Part shown: in pieces, positions 6 through 5,711 of the stretch
How positions within the stretch are numbered: the first letter of the stretch is position 1
Layout of the letters: each line of letters starts with the position of its first letter
Assembly: GCF_003722315.1 (NCBI RefSeq)
Contig: NZ_CP033580.1
Location: 2,322,501 to 2,386,500, forward strand
DNA from: Thermoanaerobacter ethanolicus JW 200
GTDB taxonomy: Bacteria > Bacillota > Thermoanaerobacteria > Thermoanaerobacterales > Thermoanaerobacteraceae
Direction: 5' to 3'
Length of the DNA stretch: 64,000 nucleotides
Position numbers and translations under genes: made by a program
Notes under the pieces: model-generated
Database searches by the model: none
What the model was told of the DNA's origin: nothing
Seen by the model: the letters and a program-made list of their open reading frames with translations, nothing else

Positions 6-1361
6 TTATTTTCCCAATCTTTTTTCTAACAATTCTTTTCCTTTTTCATATCCAGGTTTTCCTAAAAGTGCAAACATATTTTTCTTGTAAGCCTCTACCC
101 CTGGTTGGTCAAAAGGATTGACACCATTTATATATCCACTTATGGCACAAGCCATTTCAAAGAAATATACCAAATTACCAAAGTAATAAGGTGATATTTC
201 CGGAATATTTACTACGAAGTTGGGAACATTTCCATCTGTATGAGCCAATAATGTTCCTTCAAAAGCCTTTTTATTGACAAAATCTATAGTTTTTCCTGCT
301 AAAAAGTTAAGCCCATCTATATTGTCTTTGTCTTCATTTATAACTATATCTTTAACAGGTTTTTCAACATTTATAACTGTTTCAAAAATATTTCTGCTTC
401 CCTCTTGTATAAACTGACCCATTGAATGCAAATCTGTCGTAAAATCTACTGAAGCAGGATAAATTCCTTTATTGTCTTTGCCTTCACTTTCTCCGAAAAG
501 CTGTTTCCACCATTCAGAGAAATAGTGAAGCTTTGGCTCATAATTTACAAGTATTTCTATAGCTTTGCCTTTTCTGTATAAAATATTTCTTAAAACCGCA
601 TACTGCATGCTTATATTTTCATCAAGGTTATTTTTGGTGTAAACTATTGAAGCATCGTAAGCACCCTGCATCATATCGTCTATACTAATGCCTGCTACTG
701 CTATTGGCAGAAGGCCTACAGCTGTCAAAACTGAGTATCTTCCTCCAACATCGTCAGGAATCACAAATGTTTCATATCCTTCTTCATCAGCTAATTTTTT
801 TAAAGCTCCTTTCGCTCTATCTGTTGTCACATATATTCTCGATTTAGCCCCTTCTTTTCCGTATTTTTTCTCAAGGAAATCTCTAAAAACCCTAAAAGCT
901 ATCGCAGGCTCTGTGGTAGTGCCAGATTTAGATATTACATTTATAGAAACATCTTTGCTTTCTATAAGTTCAAGTAAATCACTTAAATACGTAGAACTTA
1001 TGCTGTTTCCAGCAAAATAAATCTCCGGCGTATTCCTCTTACCTTTTGGCAATAAATTATAGAAGGAATGAGAAAGCATTTCAATTGCCGCTCTTGCCCC
1101 TAAATAAGACCCACCTATACCTATAACTACAAGCACATCAGAATCTGATTGAATCTTCTCTGCTGCTTTTTTAATGCGTTCAAACTCTGATTTATCATAA
1201 TCTTTGGGAAGACTTACCCATCCTAAAAAGTCATTCCCTTGAGCATTTTTATTAAGCACCATATCAAGAGATAACTTTGCATGCCTTTCCATATATTCAA
1301 TTTCTTTTTGACTTACAAATTGTAGAGCTTTTGAATAATCAAAACCTATCAATCTCTTCAT
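6..1361 (-). CDS. pgi: Glucose-6-phosphate isomerase
   Basis: Interconverts glucose 6-phosphate and fructose 6-phosphate in the cytoplasm. The 451-residue product has the usual bacterial Pgi length and order: a sugar-phosphate site with [14 protein letters not shown] near residue 80, [10 protein letters not shown] near 145, [11 protein letters not shown] near 205, and a C-terminal [12 protein letters not shown] segment carrying the conserved lysine. Start is ATG preceded by a GGAGG ribosome site. It is the first gene of the window and is not obviously in an operon with the next minus-strand gene, 93 bases upstream. It feeds glucose released by the starch enzymes elsewhere in the window into glycolysis. 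Identification is secure. Confidence 0.97.
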
Positions 1362-1454: not shown

Positions 1455-1955
1455 TCAATTGCCACTGCTGGAACTATGCCCTCCCCTATGATTAACCTTA
1501 TAAATGTAATAAGCTGTAGCAAATAAAAGACCTACAATAATAGGTTCTACATCTACATATGTTCCTTCTACATCAAAACCTATTACCTCTCCGCCCATTC
1601 TCCCCGATATCTGTCCATTGTCAAAAATCAATTTTACATCAAAACCTATTATATTTCCTCCACACCTTCCATGTATTTCTTTATCGCTAACTCTCAAACT
1701 AAGGTCATTACCATCAATAGTTCCTCCCAATCTCACAGAGACAAAGTCTTTTCCAATAGCTCCAGAAATACTCCTTCCTATAATAACGCCCCCTATCCTC
1801 CCTTCAATTGTCCCAACTTCAAAAGAATATTTTATATCAAGGTCTGCTCCCAAAAGTGTTCCTCCAATTCGACCAGCTATTCTCCCATTATCTATACTAG
1901 CATGAACATTATAGCCGGTTATAAAGCCTCCAATTCTTCCTTCAACCTTGCCCAT
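1455..1955 (-). CDS. Glycine-rich GRIGG-repeat protein with C-terminal membrane segment
   Basis: Function not recognised. The 166-residue product is built of about six imperfect repeats of 20-26 residues, each holding a core like GRIGG followed by two hydrophobic residues and G-x-D (starts near residues 5, 28, 52, 74, 95 and 117). The regular spacing with alternating hydrophobic residues suggests a beta-solenoid or beta-sandwich stack. After the repeats comes one hydrophobic segment (about 136-152) and a short tail rich in His, Gly and Ser. No signal peptide is seen at the N terminus. The ATG start has a strong AAAGGAGGG site. It stands alone between pgi and a divergent nitroreductase. A surface or membrane-attached structural role is only a guess. 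Confidence 0.8.
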   Translation of the reverse strand: MGKVEGRIGGFITGYNVHASIDNGRIAGRIGGTLLGADLDIKYSFEVGTIEGRIGGVIIGRSISGAIGKDFVSVRLGGTIDGNDLSLRVSDKEIHGRCGGNIIGFDVKLIFDNGQISGRMGGEVIGFDVEGTYVDVEPIIVGLLFATAYYIYKVNHRGGHSSSSGN

Positions 1956-2065
1956 ACTTTTACCCTCCTTTTATTCAGCTTTATTTTTACATACCCATAA
2001 ATTTTTGTCAATCTTTTTGGATTTTTTACTTTATGGGATATAATATAAAGAGGAGGTGTGAAATT

Positions 2066-2581: not shown

Positions 2582-3808
2582 ATGTCAAAAGTAGTAGAAA
2601 GATTTTTAAAATATGTAAAATATCATACAACATCGGATGAAAGTTCATCAACCTATCCCAGCACTGAAGGCCAGTTAATATTTGCAAAAGAATTAGCAAA
2701 AGAGTTAGAAAGTTTAGGCTTAAAAGAGGTAAATGTAGATAAAAACGGCTATGTTACGGCTTTACTTCCTTCAAATACTGACGAAGAACTTCCTACAATA
2801 GGATTTATTGCTCATATGGACACAAGTCCTGATATGTGCGGTAAAGATGTAAATCCCCAAATAGTAGAAAATTATGACGGTAAAGACATAATACTAAACA
2901 AAGAAAAAAATATAGTTTTATCGCCTTCTGAATTCCCGGAGCTTAAAAATTACATAGGAAAGACTTTAATTGTAACAGACGGAACAACTCTTTTGGGAGC
3001 TGATGATAAAGCAGGAATTGCAGAAATAATAACAGCTATGGAATATTTAATAAATCATCCTGAAATAAAGCATGGCAATATAAAAGTAGCCTTCACACCT
3101 GATGAAGAAATTGGTAGGGGTGTAGACAAATTTGATGTAAAAAAATTTAATTGTGATTTTGCTTATACTGTAGATGGCGGTGGAATTGGAGAAATAGAAT
3201 ACGAAAATTTCAATGCTGCCAGTGCTAAAATCAAAATTAATGGCAGAAATGTGCATCCTGGAACAGCAAAAGGCAAGATGAAAAACTCCATTTTGATTGG
3301 AATAGAACTCCAAAATATGTTACCTGAGCATGAAACTCCTGCCCATACTGAAGGATATGAAGGTTTTTATCATTTGAACAATTTTGAAGGCAATGTAGAA
3401 CAAACTAAAATGTATTATATTATCAGAGATTTTAATAAGCAAACTTTTTTAGATAAAAAAGAATACCTAAAAAGCATTGTAGAAACATTAAATAAAAAAT
3501 ATGGTGAAGGTACACTAGAGCTTGAACTTAAAGACCAGTATTACAATATGAGAGAAATAATTGAAAAGCATATGCACATAGTCGATACAGCATTAGAAGC
3601 AATGAAATTAGTAGGAGTGGAACCTAAAATAGTGCCTATAAGAGGAGGCACTGATGGAGCAAGATTAAGCTATATGGGGCTTCCAACACCTAATTTATTC
3701 ACAGGAGGGCATAATTTTCACGGTAAATATGAATTTATACCGACATATGCAATGGAAAAAGCAGTCGAAGTAATAATAAAAATAATTGAGCTTTACGCAA
3801 TCGAGTAG
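2582..3808 (+). CDS. pepT: Peptidase T (tripeptidase), C terminus rewritten by an intron
   Basis: Zinc aminotripeptidase of the M20B family, about 408 residues, releasing the N-terminal residue of tripeptides in the cytoplasm. Metal-site motifs are visible: [25 protein letters not shown], and near the end [10 protein letters not shown] and [10 protein letters not shown]. Start at 2582 is preferred to the in-frame ATG pair at 2564 because TGGAGG sits 8 bases before it. The last codons, ATC GAG TAG, belong to the 3' end of the group II intron at 3800-5711. If the intron is removed, the reading frame ends GCA GAA AAA TAA, so the ancestral tail was Ala-Glu-Lys. Loss of activity is unlikely because the change is confined to the last two residues. 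Confidence 0.95.
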
Positions 3809-5711
3809 GAGCTGAATAATTATTTTATTCAGCGTCCTCTCACACCACCGTACGTACCGTTCGGTATACGGCGGTTCATTAGGAATTGTGTACAATTAGA
3901 TATCTTTGGGATAAACTCTTATAACCTATGCTTTCAAAGTATTTATTTGTAAGAGTCTTATTTAGGATTGGGCTATTGGATATTCTCCAGTAGCCTTTCC
4001 TTGTATTGGCGTATTCCCAGGCTTTTTGTTCTTCTACTCCTAGTTTTACTAAGTTATCATGCTTCGTTTTTATCTTCTTCCATTGTTTCCATATACATGC
4101 CCTTAGTCTTCGCCTTATCCATTCGTCAAGGGTTTTCATTATGCTTTTCGCGTCTGCTAATCCAAAATAGTTGACCCATCCTGTTGTTATTTGATTTAGT
4201 CTTTTTATTCTGTTTTCCATGCTTATTCCCTTGTTCCGATTGGTTATTTCTCTTACTTTTTCCTTAAACCTTTTGATGGATTTTTCATGGATTCTTATTC
4301 TTACTTCGTTTTCTTTTGTATAGAATGAAAATCCAAGAAATTTTCTTCTCCATGGTCTATCTACAGCACTTTTTGCTTCGTTGACTTTTAGTTTTAATTT
4401 GCTTTCTATGAATTTCTTTATGCTTCTCATTACTCTGTTTCCTGCAGACCTGCTTTTTACATATATGTTGCAGTCATCTGCATATCGGCAGAATTTATGC
4501 CCTCGTTTCTCAAGTTCTTTGTCTAGTTCGTCCAACATTATGTTTGCTAATAGGGGACTTAATGGCCCTCCTTGGGGTGTCCCTTCTTCTGTTGATACTT
4601 TGATTCCGTTTATCATTACTCCTGATTCTAGGTATCTTCGTATTAACTTTAGTACCCTTTTATCTCCTATCCGCTTTTCTAGTTTGGACATTATTATGTC
4701 GTGGTTTACTCTGTCAAAGAACTTTTCTAAGTCCATATCTACAACCCATGTGTATCCTTCATTTATGTATGCTTCTGCGGCTTTTATTGCGTCTTTTGCA
4801 CTGCGTCCTGGTCTGAATCCATAACTGCTATCTGAAAATGTATGGTTGTAGACTCTATTTAGTATTTGGGCTATTGCTTGTTGTATTAGTCTGTCTAGTA
4901 CTGTAGGTATTCCTAGGAGTCTTACTCCTCCATCTGGTTTGGGAATTTCTACTCTTCGCACTGGTTGTGGTTTGTATTTCCCCTCCAGCAGTTGTTGTTT
5001 TATGGTTGCCCAGTTTTCTTTGAGATACGGTAGAAGTTCATCTACTCCCATCCCATCGACTCCATGGCTTCCTTTATTTGCAACAACGCGCTTGTATGCT
5101 GCTTCCATGTTCCCTCGTTCTACTATCATTTCAAGCATCTTGCCGGTATATCTTTGTACCTCGTTTCTTCCATCTTCCGACGCCGATGATATACTATGCA
5201 CTTCCGTTGTCTTTTGAAATTCCATTTCTCTATTCAACGGATAGCCTCTTTGTTGAGTTGTCTGCAGTCTCTGCATATCTTTCGAGTCCATAAGATTTCC
5301 AAAACCTCCTAACGTTCGGTCCTTCCTTATCTATTCATGTCTAGATAAGTACTATGACCTCTGCTGACTTCTCAAGGTTCAGCCATACATCACTGCATGG
5401 GTTGTCACTTCAGATTTTACTTCCATGACTTATCCTTGAGACCTCCCCGGGTAAGAACGATAACTTTCATCTCATCTATCTGCCAGATTTACTGTATGGG
5501 ATTCGGGTAGTGTTGGACTTCGTTTTGTTACGCAAACTCATCCATCCCAATTCAGCCTCTTATCTGGTTCTTGTTCATCAGACCGAGATTTTGCCTTAAG
5601 CTTCCTTCAGATTCCACCTCACGATGGACACCCTTGCTCTTGGCTAGTGGTTCCCACTACCAAGCCCACAGCGGACTTTCACCGCCTAGTTATCGCCCAT
5701 GCCGGGCGCAC
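3800..5711 (-). mobile_element. Group IIC intron, copy 1
   Basis: A 1912-base ribozyme-type retroelement on the minus strand. Its 5' end reads GTGCGCCCGGCATGGGCG, matching the start of group IIC introns such as the structurally solved Oceanobacillus iheyensis one. Near the 3' end lie domain V (3836-3877, with paired GTATAC and GTACGTAC blocks), a domain VI hairpin (3812-3832) and the terminal CTACTCGAT. The open frame in domain IV encodes the maturase. Boundaries are fixed by comparison with the second copy at 51421-53332, which diverges exactly outside these coordinates. The 5' exon is the terminator hairpin at 5719-5744 followed by TTATTTTTC, the known group IIC target type. The 3' side interrupts the last codons of pepT, antisense to it. 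Confidence 0.95.
3879..5291 (-). CDS. ltrA: Group II intron reverse transcriptase/maturase, copy 1
   Basis: Multifunctional intron-encoded protein of 470 residues: reverse transcriptase for retrohoming plus maturase that assists splicing. Reverse transcriptase blocks run from about residue 60 to 300, with SYGFRPGRSAKDAI (157-169), VVDMDLEKFFD (183-193), EGTPQGGPLSPLLANI (236-251) and the catalytic YADD (270-273). A maturase domain X with GWVNYFGLADAK near 371 follows. The protein ends without an HNH endonuclease domain, as in class C proteins. The ATG is preceded by AGGAGG at a rather long spacing. It is intact, so the element could still be active. It differs from copy 2 at four residues: 82 (Gly here), 95 (Ala), 232 (Val) and 289 (Arg). 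Confidence 0.96.
   Translation of the reverse strand: MDSKDMQRLQTTQQRGYPLNREMEFQKTTEVHSISSASEDGRNEVQRYTGKMLEMIVERGNMEAAYKRVVANKGSHGVDGMGVDELLPYLKENWATIKQQLLEGKYKPQPVRRVEIPKPDGGVRLLGIPTVLDRLIQQAIAQILNRVYNHTFSDSSYGFRPGRSAKDAIKAAEAYINEGYTWVVDMDLEKFFDRVNHDIIMSKLEKRIGDKRVLKLIRRYLESGVMINGIKVSTEEGTPQGGPLSPLLANIMLDELDKELEKRGHKFCRYADDCNIYVKSRSAGNRVMRSIKKFIESKLKLKVNEAKSAVDRPWRRKFLGFSFYTKENEVRIRIHEKSIKRFKEKVREITNRNKGISMENRIKRLNQITTGWVNYFGLADAKSIMKTLDEWIRRRLRACIWKQWKKIKTKHDNLVKLGVEEQKAWEYANTRKGYWRISNSPILNKTLTNKYFESIGYKSLSQRYLIVHNS

Follow-up and report, generated by a model that had tools for sequence, protein, structure and literature searches.

A six-repeat protein of Thermoanaerobacter may fold into a 12-stranded barrel with its own C-terminal helix as the core

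Small barrels built from repeated beta-hairpins have been described in the beta-flower families. According to Durairaj et al. 2023 (PMC10584680; PF21784, PF21785 and PF21786; clan CL0395), the sixfold form of the beta-flower arranges short antiparallel hairpins in a shallow 12-strand barrel. As that report describes them, the petals are four-, five- or sixfold, a C-terminal hydrophobic helix is enclosed in many members, not all, the hairpin tips carry a semiconserved [DNEQ]xxG motif, and some beta-flowers have an N-terminal lipoprotein signal. The Tubby C-terminal domain, LOR (PF04525) and scramblase (PF03803) are presented in the same report as a 12-strand barrel around a hydrophobic helix (PMC10584680). 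Intimin-type barrels are likewise reported to have 12 strands (PMC6555100), and the pore of the intimin barrel is described as occluded by an alpha-helix that connects the barrel to the exported domains (PMC3297439). Among the literature matches listed, no functional work on beta-flowers beyond Durairaj 2023 appears by title.

The protein considered here is encoded in a 64,000-nucleotide stretch of the Thermoanaerobacter ethanolicus JW 200 genome, which we call the window. Its gene, the parts of its product and the neighbouring sites are as follows, in window coordinates and protein residues.

1455..1955, minus strand: coding sequence of the six-repeat protein, 166 residues, stop codon included in the coordinates; an open reading frame with homologues in other genomes
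1887..1952, minus strand: repeat 1, residues 2-23, RIGG at 7-10, model strands 2-9 and 14-22
1815..1886, minus strand: repeat 2, residues 24-47, RIGG at 29-32, model strands 25-31 and 36-44
1749..1814, minus strand: repeat 3, residues 48-69, RIGG at 53-56, model strands 49-55 and 61-67
1683..1748, minus strand: repeat 4, residues 70-91, RLGG at 75-78, model strands 71-76 and 83-90
1617..1682, minus strand: repeat 5, residues 92-113, RCGG at 97-100, model strands 93-100 and 105-112
1545..1616, minus strand: repeat 6, residues 114-137, RMGG at 119-122, model strands 115-120 and 127-134, leading into a D-V-E-P linker
1491..1544, minus strand: C-terminal hydrophobic helix of the model, residues 138-155, the putative barrel plug
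1458..1490, minus strand: polar Ser/Gly tail, residues 156-166, Ser/Gly-rich across the family, pLDDT below 50 at 160-166
1983..2011, minus strand: promoter-like site by consensus match, TTGACA-17-AAAAAT with TG preceding the second hexamer
immediately 5' of the ATG of the six-repeat gene, minus strand: AAAGGAGG, putative ribosome-binding site read from the sequence
6..1361, minus strand: downstream neighbouring open reading frame, by recognition presumably a glucose-6-phosphate isomerase gene, with its own promoter-like site at 1423-1395

The codon differences between the window gene and its relatives are consistent with a coding gene at 1455-1955. In a crude count over the first 156 codons, synonymous and non-synonymous differences number 14 and 9 against homologue L001, 25 and 16 against L002, and 25 and 18 against L003. 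The promoter-like sites are matches to the consensus only; the scan returned seven of them across the region, where 2.9 +/- 1.5 were expected.

The sequence-only reading of this gene had described a sixfold repeat of about 24 residues with a near-invariant RxGG core and alternating hydrophobic residues, and all of these features hold up under comparison with shuffled and homologous sequences. The R.GG motif occurs at residues 7, 29, 53, 75, 97 and 119, with a unit length of 22-24 residues; its count of six compares with a mean of 0.41 and a maximum of four in 10,000 shuffles of the window protein. The best internal diagonal scores 107, where 500 shuffles of residues 1-138 average 28.9 +/- 5.1 and peak at 52. 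The conservation of the unit was assessed on 42 homologue rows, a set that omits 17 of 47 places in the phylum without a locus, some of them fragments and two interrupted by stops. Repeat 1 is missing from the L021 row, so that 251 rather than 252 repeat sites are available, and the row of L019 carries extra upstream residues. Taken together, the six repeats of the 42 rows give the consensus unit Phi-x-G-R-Phi-G-G-x-Phi-x-G-x-D-Phi-x-Phi-x-Phi, whose positions we number from the core Arg as 0. This Arg is present at 249 of the 251 sites, with all six retained in 40 of the 42 rows. Hydrophobic residues occupy -3, +1 and +10 in approximately 100% of cases, +5 in 96% and +12 in 90%, in contrast to 0-21% at the neighbouring positions -4, -2, +9, +11 and +13. 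The pooled Kyte-Doolittle (KD) values follow the same alternation, at approximately +3.8 to +4.1 for -3, +1 and +10 and -1.7 to -4.5 for -4, -2, 0 and +11. The +9 residue is D or E at 194 of 251 sites and one of D, E, N, S or T at 250. The repeats of one protein are approximately 37-42% identical to each other over 20 positions, and symmetry is broken most clearly, at the thresholds applied, by F105 of repeat 5, where 38 of 42 rows have Phe against approximately 10% at the equivalent place in the other repeats, and by residue 120 of repeat 6, where 33 of 42 have Leu.

The window protein belongs, by sequence comparison, to a widespread family that is without a Pfam model and separate from the published beta-flower families. 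Of 37 genomes of the class, 13 have a member, and the sample of the phylum has members in 44 of its 398 genomes and 31 of its 266 genera; outside the phylum, four Deinococcus records among 72,556 plasmid records carry the gene. That the family had gone unrecognised in the sequence-only reading agrees with the profile searches, in which the window protein has no Pfam or NCBIfam match at E <= 10 and no PDB sequence match better than E 0.09. Pfam searches with 42 distinct members gave single-member matches at chance level (E >= 0.059), and NCBIfam searches with 17 members gave a lone match at E 0.23. A DUF7662 match in one member (E 3e-16) lies in a separate N-terminal part of a Deinococcus taeanensis protein (L021:5611-6477), in which this part is fused to the putative barrel; a literature search on DUF7662 found nothing. 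Searches of the literature for RxGG, RIGG or GRIGG repeats or an RxGG motif retrieved just plant peptides and a desulfinase. One genome (L076, G372) carries a tandem pair of family genes, each matched over nearly the whole profile, and another (L078, G125) carries a second, degenerate copy from which the Arg has gone in several repeats. A match in Shinella (L005) was spurious, its open reading frame being without such repeats. A link to phages was considered and rejected: neither 50,697 phage records nor pattern scans of viral contigs yielded a family match, and no weight was given to borderline matches to phrog_1277, a profile named DNA methyltransferase (E 0.0014 with the window protein, best stretch 37 residues; borderline in 7 of 42 members, best E 0.00026).

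Structure prediction with AlphaFold2 returned a similar fold for the window protein and for a 52% identical homologue (L004). The best models each consist of twelve strands followed by one helix, placed at 138-155 in the window protein (pLDDT 86.1, pTM 0.85) and at 137-154 in the homologue (pLDDT 82.8, pTM 0.84); each rests on an alignment of five sequences, four of them being close relatives that are 86-91% identical to the window protein. The remaining models reach pLDDT values of 64.5, 33.5, 31.2 and 29.4 for the window protein and 78.1, 40.6, 32.7 and 28.1 for the homologue, so that one of five and two of five models, respectively, exceed 70. In the structural search with VIA-align 2, the window model aligned first with KdgM, which we take to be a 12-strand porin (Z 12.2, 2.8 Å, 134 residues of 1-135, excluding the C-terminal helix), and the next row scored 7.1. 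The homologue model aligned first with intimin, as 5g26 (Z 10.5, 3.3 Å, 152 residues of 1-161) and 4e1s (Z 10.1, 3.0 Å, 138 residues of 1-153), with the next row at 7.4. The two models thus differ in their top rows, each of which is an outer-membrane barrel. Foldseek had no match at E <= 0.001 for either model, predicted viral structures gave no fold match at E <= 0.001, and no Tubby-like entry is among the matches listed in the fold searches with both models. On the evidence of these models, we consider a barrel architecture highly probable.

What is the role of the C-terminal hydrophobic segment? The membrane tail suggested by the sequence-only reading survives as a hydrophobic helix in both models; its membrane role has become doubtful, given the intimin alignment and the short or weakly hydrophobic segments of most homologues. 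In a tail-anchored membrane protein, residues 138-155 would span the membrane, with the repeats as a domain on its cytoplasmic side; this is in keeping with the hydrophobic C-terminal stretch and subsequent polar end of the aligned rows and with a 19-residue hydropathy of at least 1.6 in 12 of 42 members. However, the other 30 fall below 1.6, so that a spanning segment is not kept across the family, and the uncharged run in the four Deinococcus rows is just 10, 10, 10 and 14 residues long. The window protein itself reaches 1.39 as the best 19-residue value in its last 50 residues. Moreover, the hydrophobic interior of the barrel would be empty if the helix were elsewhere. A buried helix explains both the short tail forms and the hydrophobic interior, and a membrane anchor explains neither; tail anchoring is therefore unlikely, and the hydrophobic tail is more likely the core of the barrel than a membrane tail. 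The intimin alignment bears on the same point. Since the strands of the homologue end at residue 133, at least 17 of the 152 intimin-aligned residues lie beyond 135, in the linker, helix and end, and this extension, together with the pore helix of intimin, supports a helix inside the barrel without proving it. The radius computed for a 12-strand barrel with a shear of 12, a value that sixfold symmetry permits, is 10.6 Å, which is approximately the distance of helix-to-sheet packing. An internal position of the helix is probable on these grounds. Near the helix end, Tyr occupies residue 149 in 38 of 42 rows and residue 152 in 32 of 42, making this end aromatic. The tail beyond, which had been read as Ser/His/Gly, is polar with Ser and Gly throughout the family; His is rare, being found at 160 in 4 of 41 rows and at 163 in 4 of 35.

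Other uses of the lumen, and other folds, are less compatible with these data. A carrier of hydrophobic ligands, comparable to fatty-acid-binding or nitrobindin-like barrels, would keep a lipid or small molecule in its lumen and use the helix as a displaceable lid. This reading draws on the Foldseek result, in which the top row of each model is a fatty-acid-binding protein, and on nitrobindin-type rows at Z 6.3-6.9 for the window model. Those Foldseek rows are weak, however (E at least 0.0095, TM-scores below 0.5), Z values below 8 may, by the tool's own note, reflect just a common arrangement, and fatty-acid-binding and nitrobindin-like barrels have fewer strands. In addition, the inward positions would be Gly or aliphatic, which suits a buried helix, and we regard a ligand carrier as quite unlikely. 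The beta-solenoid with a membrane tail that had been predicted from the regular 22-24-residue repeats and alternating hydrophobic residues gives way to the predicted structures, which place two strands in each repeat and find their best matches among barrels. Solenoids also usually vary in length, and the full rows of the 42-row alignment all have six aligned repeats (a loose regular expression gives a different count in 11 of the 42 rows); a solenoid is thus very improbable. The top structural rows would by themselves favour a porin-like barrel of the outer membrane. However, repeat 1 opens within the first residues of the window protein, and therefore a signal peptide has no room; the host genus has a single membrane, and strands with a polar side and a hydrophobic side, together with a hydrophobic tail, would better suit a soluble barrel with a greasy core. 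An outer-membrane barrel is accordingly the least credible of these readings.

Thus, we propose, with a probability of roughly 0.6 for the reading as a whole, that the protein is a soluble cytoplasmic 12-strand antiparallel barrel of six hairpins with the C-terminal helix as its core. Six beta-hairpins would close into the barrel, and the hydrophobic helix would thread back through the lumen. The hydrophobic residues of the unit would point inward, where Gly at -1 may give the helix room. The six Arg residues would point outward, each opposite an Asp, Ser or Asn across its own hairpin, and together form a girdle; the strand limits of the model place R7 opposite N16 and R29 opposite D38. Against this arrangement, the second copy of L078 is without several of the Arg residues, and the helix position is read indirectly. 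The six hydrophobic hairpin tips (GG-x-Phi-x-G) might encircle the end at which the helix exits, and, as beta-flower and Tubby-like proteins suggest by analogy, the resulting face could conceivably dock to a partner or to the inner surface of the membrane. Such docking to membrane or lipid is doubtful. The barrel is near-neutral to acidic (14 K+R and 17 D+E in window residues 1-136), which argues against plain electrostatic membrane binding.

The proposed fold resembles the sixfold beta-flower/Tubby-like barrel more than any other described architecture, yet the family is separate in sequence. Like the beta-flower, its predicted structures have hairpins in a sixfold 12-strand barrel with hydrophobic residues at one set of tips; unlike the beta-flower, the family has a near-invariant RxGG core, and it is without the N-terminal lipoprotein signal of some beta-flowers. 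PF21784, PF21785 and PF21786 match neither the window protein nor 17 members at E <= 10, none of the 42 members at E <= 1, and nothing in the window's genome at E <= 0.001; across 199 phylum genomes the three models match in 3, 3 and 1, several of the matches being partial. The [DNEQ]xxG motif is not enriched at the inter-repeat tips, where it occurs in 33 of 217 against 30 expected by shuffles. With the intimin/invasin beta-domain (5g26, 4e1s), the protein shares a predicted 12-strand barrel and, as proposed, a helix in the pore; unlike it, those domains are outer-membrane barrels, and with 3-4% identity the likeness is one of shape only. The Pfam model IAT_beta matches one member at E 0.33, a chance level.

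The Tubby C-terminal domain, LOR and scramblase share with the window family the predicted 12 strands and one hydrophobic helix, unlike which the window family has a very regular internal repeat. None of the 42 members has a Tubby, LOR or scramblase match in Pfam at E <= 1, and hhalign of the 42-member profile against one bacterial LOR protein gave a probability of 0.2% (E 0.36). Scramblase PF03803 was found in 0 and LOR in 1 of 119 genomes. It is improbable, although conceivable, that the family is a sixfold-symmetric bacterial barrel of the Tubby/scramblase type whose helix can exit into the membrane, switching the protein between a soluble plugged form and a membrane-tethered form. If that were true, the six similar hairpins would provide a living model of the origin of the Tubby barrel by repeated duplication of a hairpin.

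The genomic setting places the gene between conserved flanks. On the side opposite the isomerase gene lies a divergent gene that, by recognition, we take to be nitroreductase-like, and these two genes border the site in all ten Thermoanaerobacter genomes compared, whether the six-repeat gene is present or not. The gene occurs in four of the ten; the other six are without it at the site or elsewhere in the genome. The two flanking start codons have 704 bases between them in the window genome, compared with 177 at locus L094. The sister genus has the gene in 4 of 9 genomes, and two of its loci (L072 and L085) have it at the same place, with an extra open reading frame between it and the isomerase gene. 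Because the sister genus has the gene at the same place and the flanks are conserved in the genus, loss of the gene is likelier than gain. Elsewhere in the window, a group II intron lies at 3800-5628 on the minus strand after a peptidase gene, with Rfam matches at both ends; inside it, the open reading frame 3879-5291 is, by recognition, presumably reverse transcriptase-like. At the same locus in another genome (L101, G024), a single in-frame stop interrupts the isomerase gene, and just fragments of the peptidase gene are matched.

Among 39 loci compared, in 35 of which a rough ORF caller detected the family gene, immediate neighbours that recur do so in 2-4 loci and are confined to loci of one genome family. 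The most widely spread gene clusters, in 10 and 6 of the 39 loci, do not adjoin the family gene in a recurring way. Two loci of different genome families (L079 and L082) have several surrounding genes in common, and the ORF caller missed the family gene in both. On two Deinococcus plasmids (L019 and L020), the gene overlaps a cyclase-family gene and a kynureninase gene is nearby; the other two Deinococcus plasmids are not so arranged. Operon logic was rejected as a clue to function, as no neighbour points to one. The gene looks to have been long kept in some lines and dispensable in many strains, without a fixed partner gene.

Approximately one in nine of the sampled phylum genomes has a member of this family, yet no Pfam model (42 members) or NCBIfam model (17 members) describes it. 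With six copies of one hairpin and its own tail as the proposed core, the protein offers a clean test case for the evolution of barrels by duplication, and a small self-plugged barrel is a possible scaffold for design. Its structure and location would tell whether hydrophobic tails of this kind merit annotation as membrane anchors.
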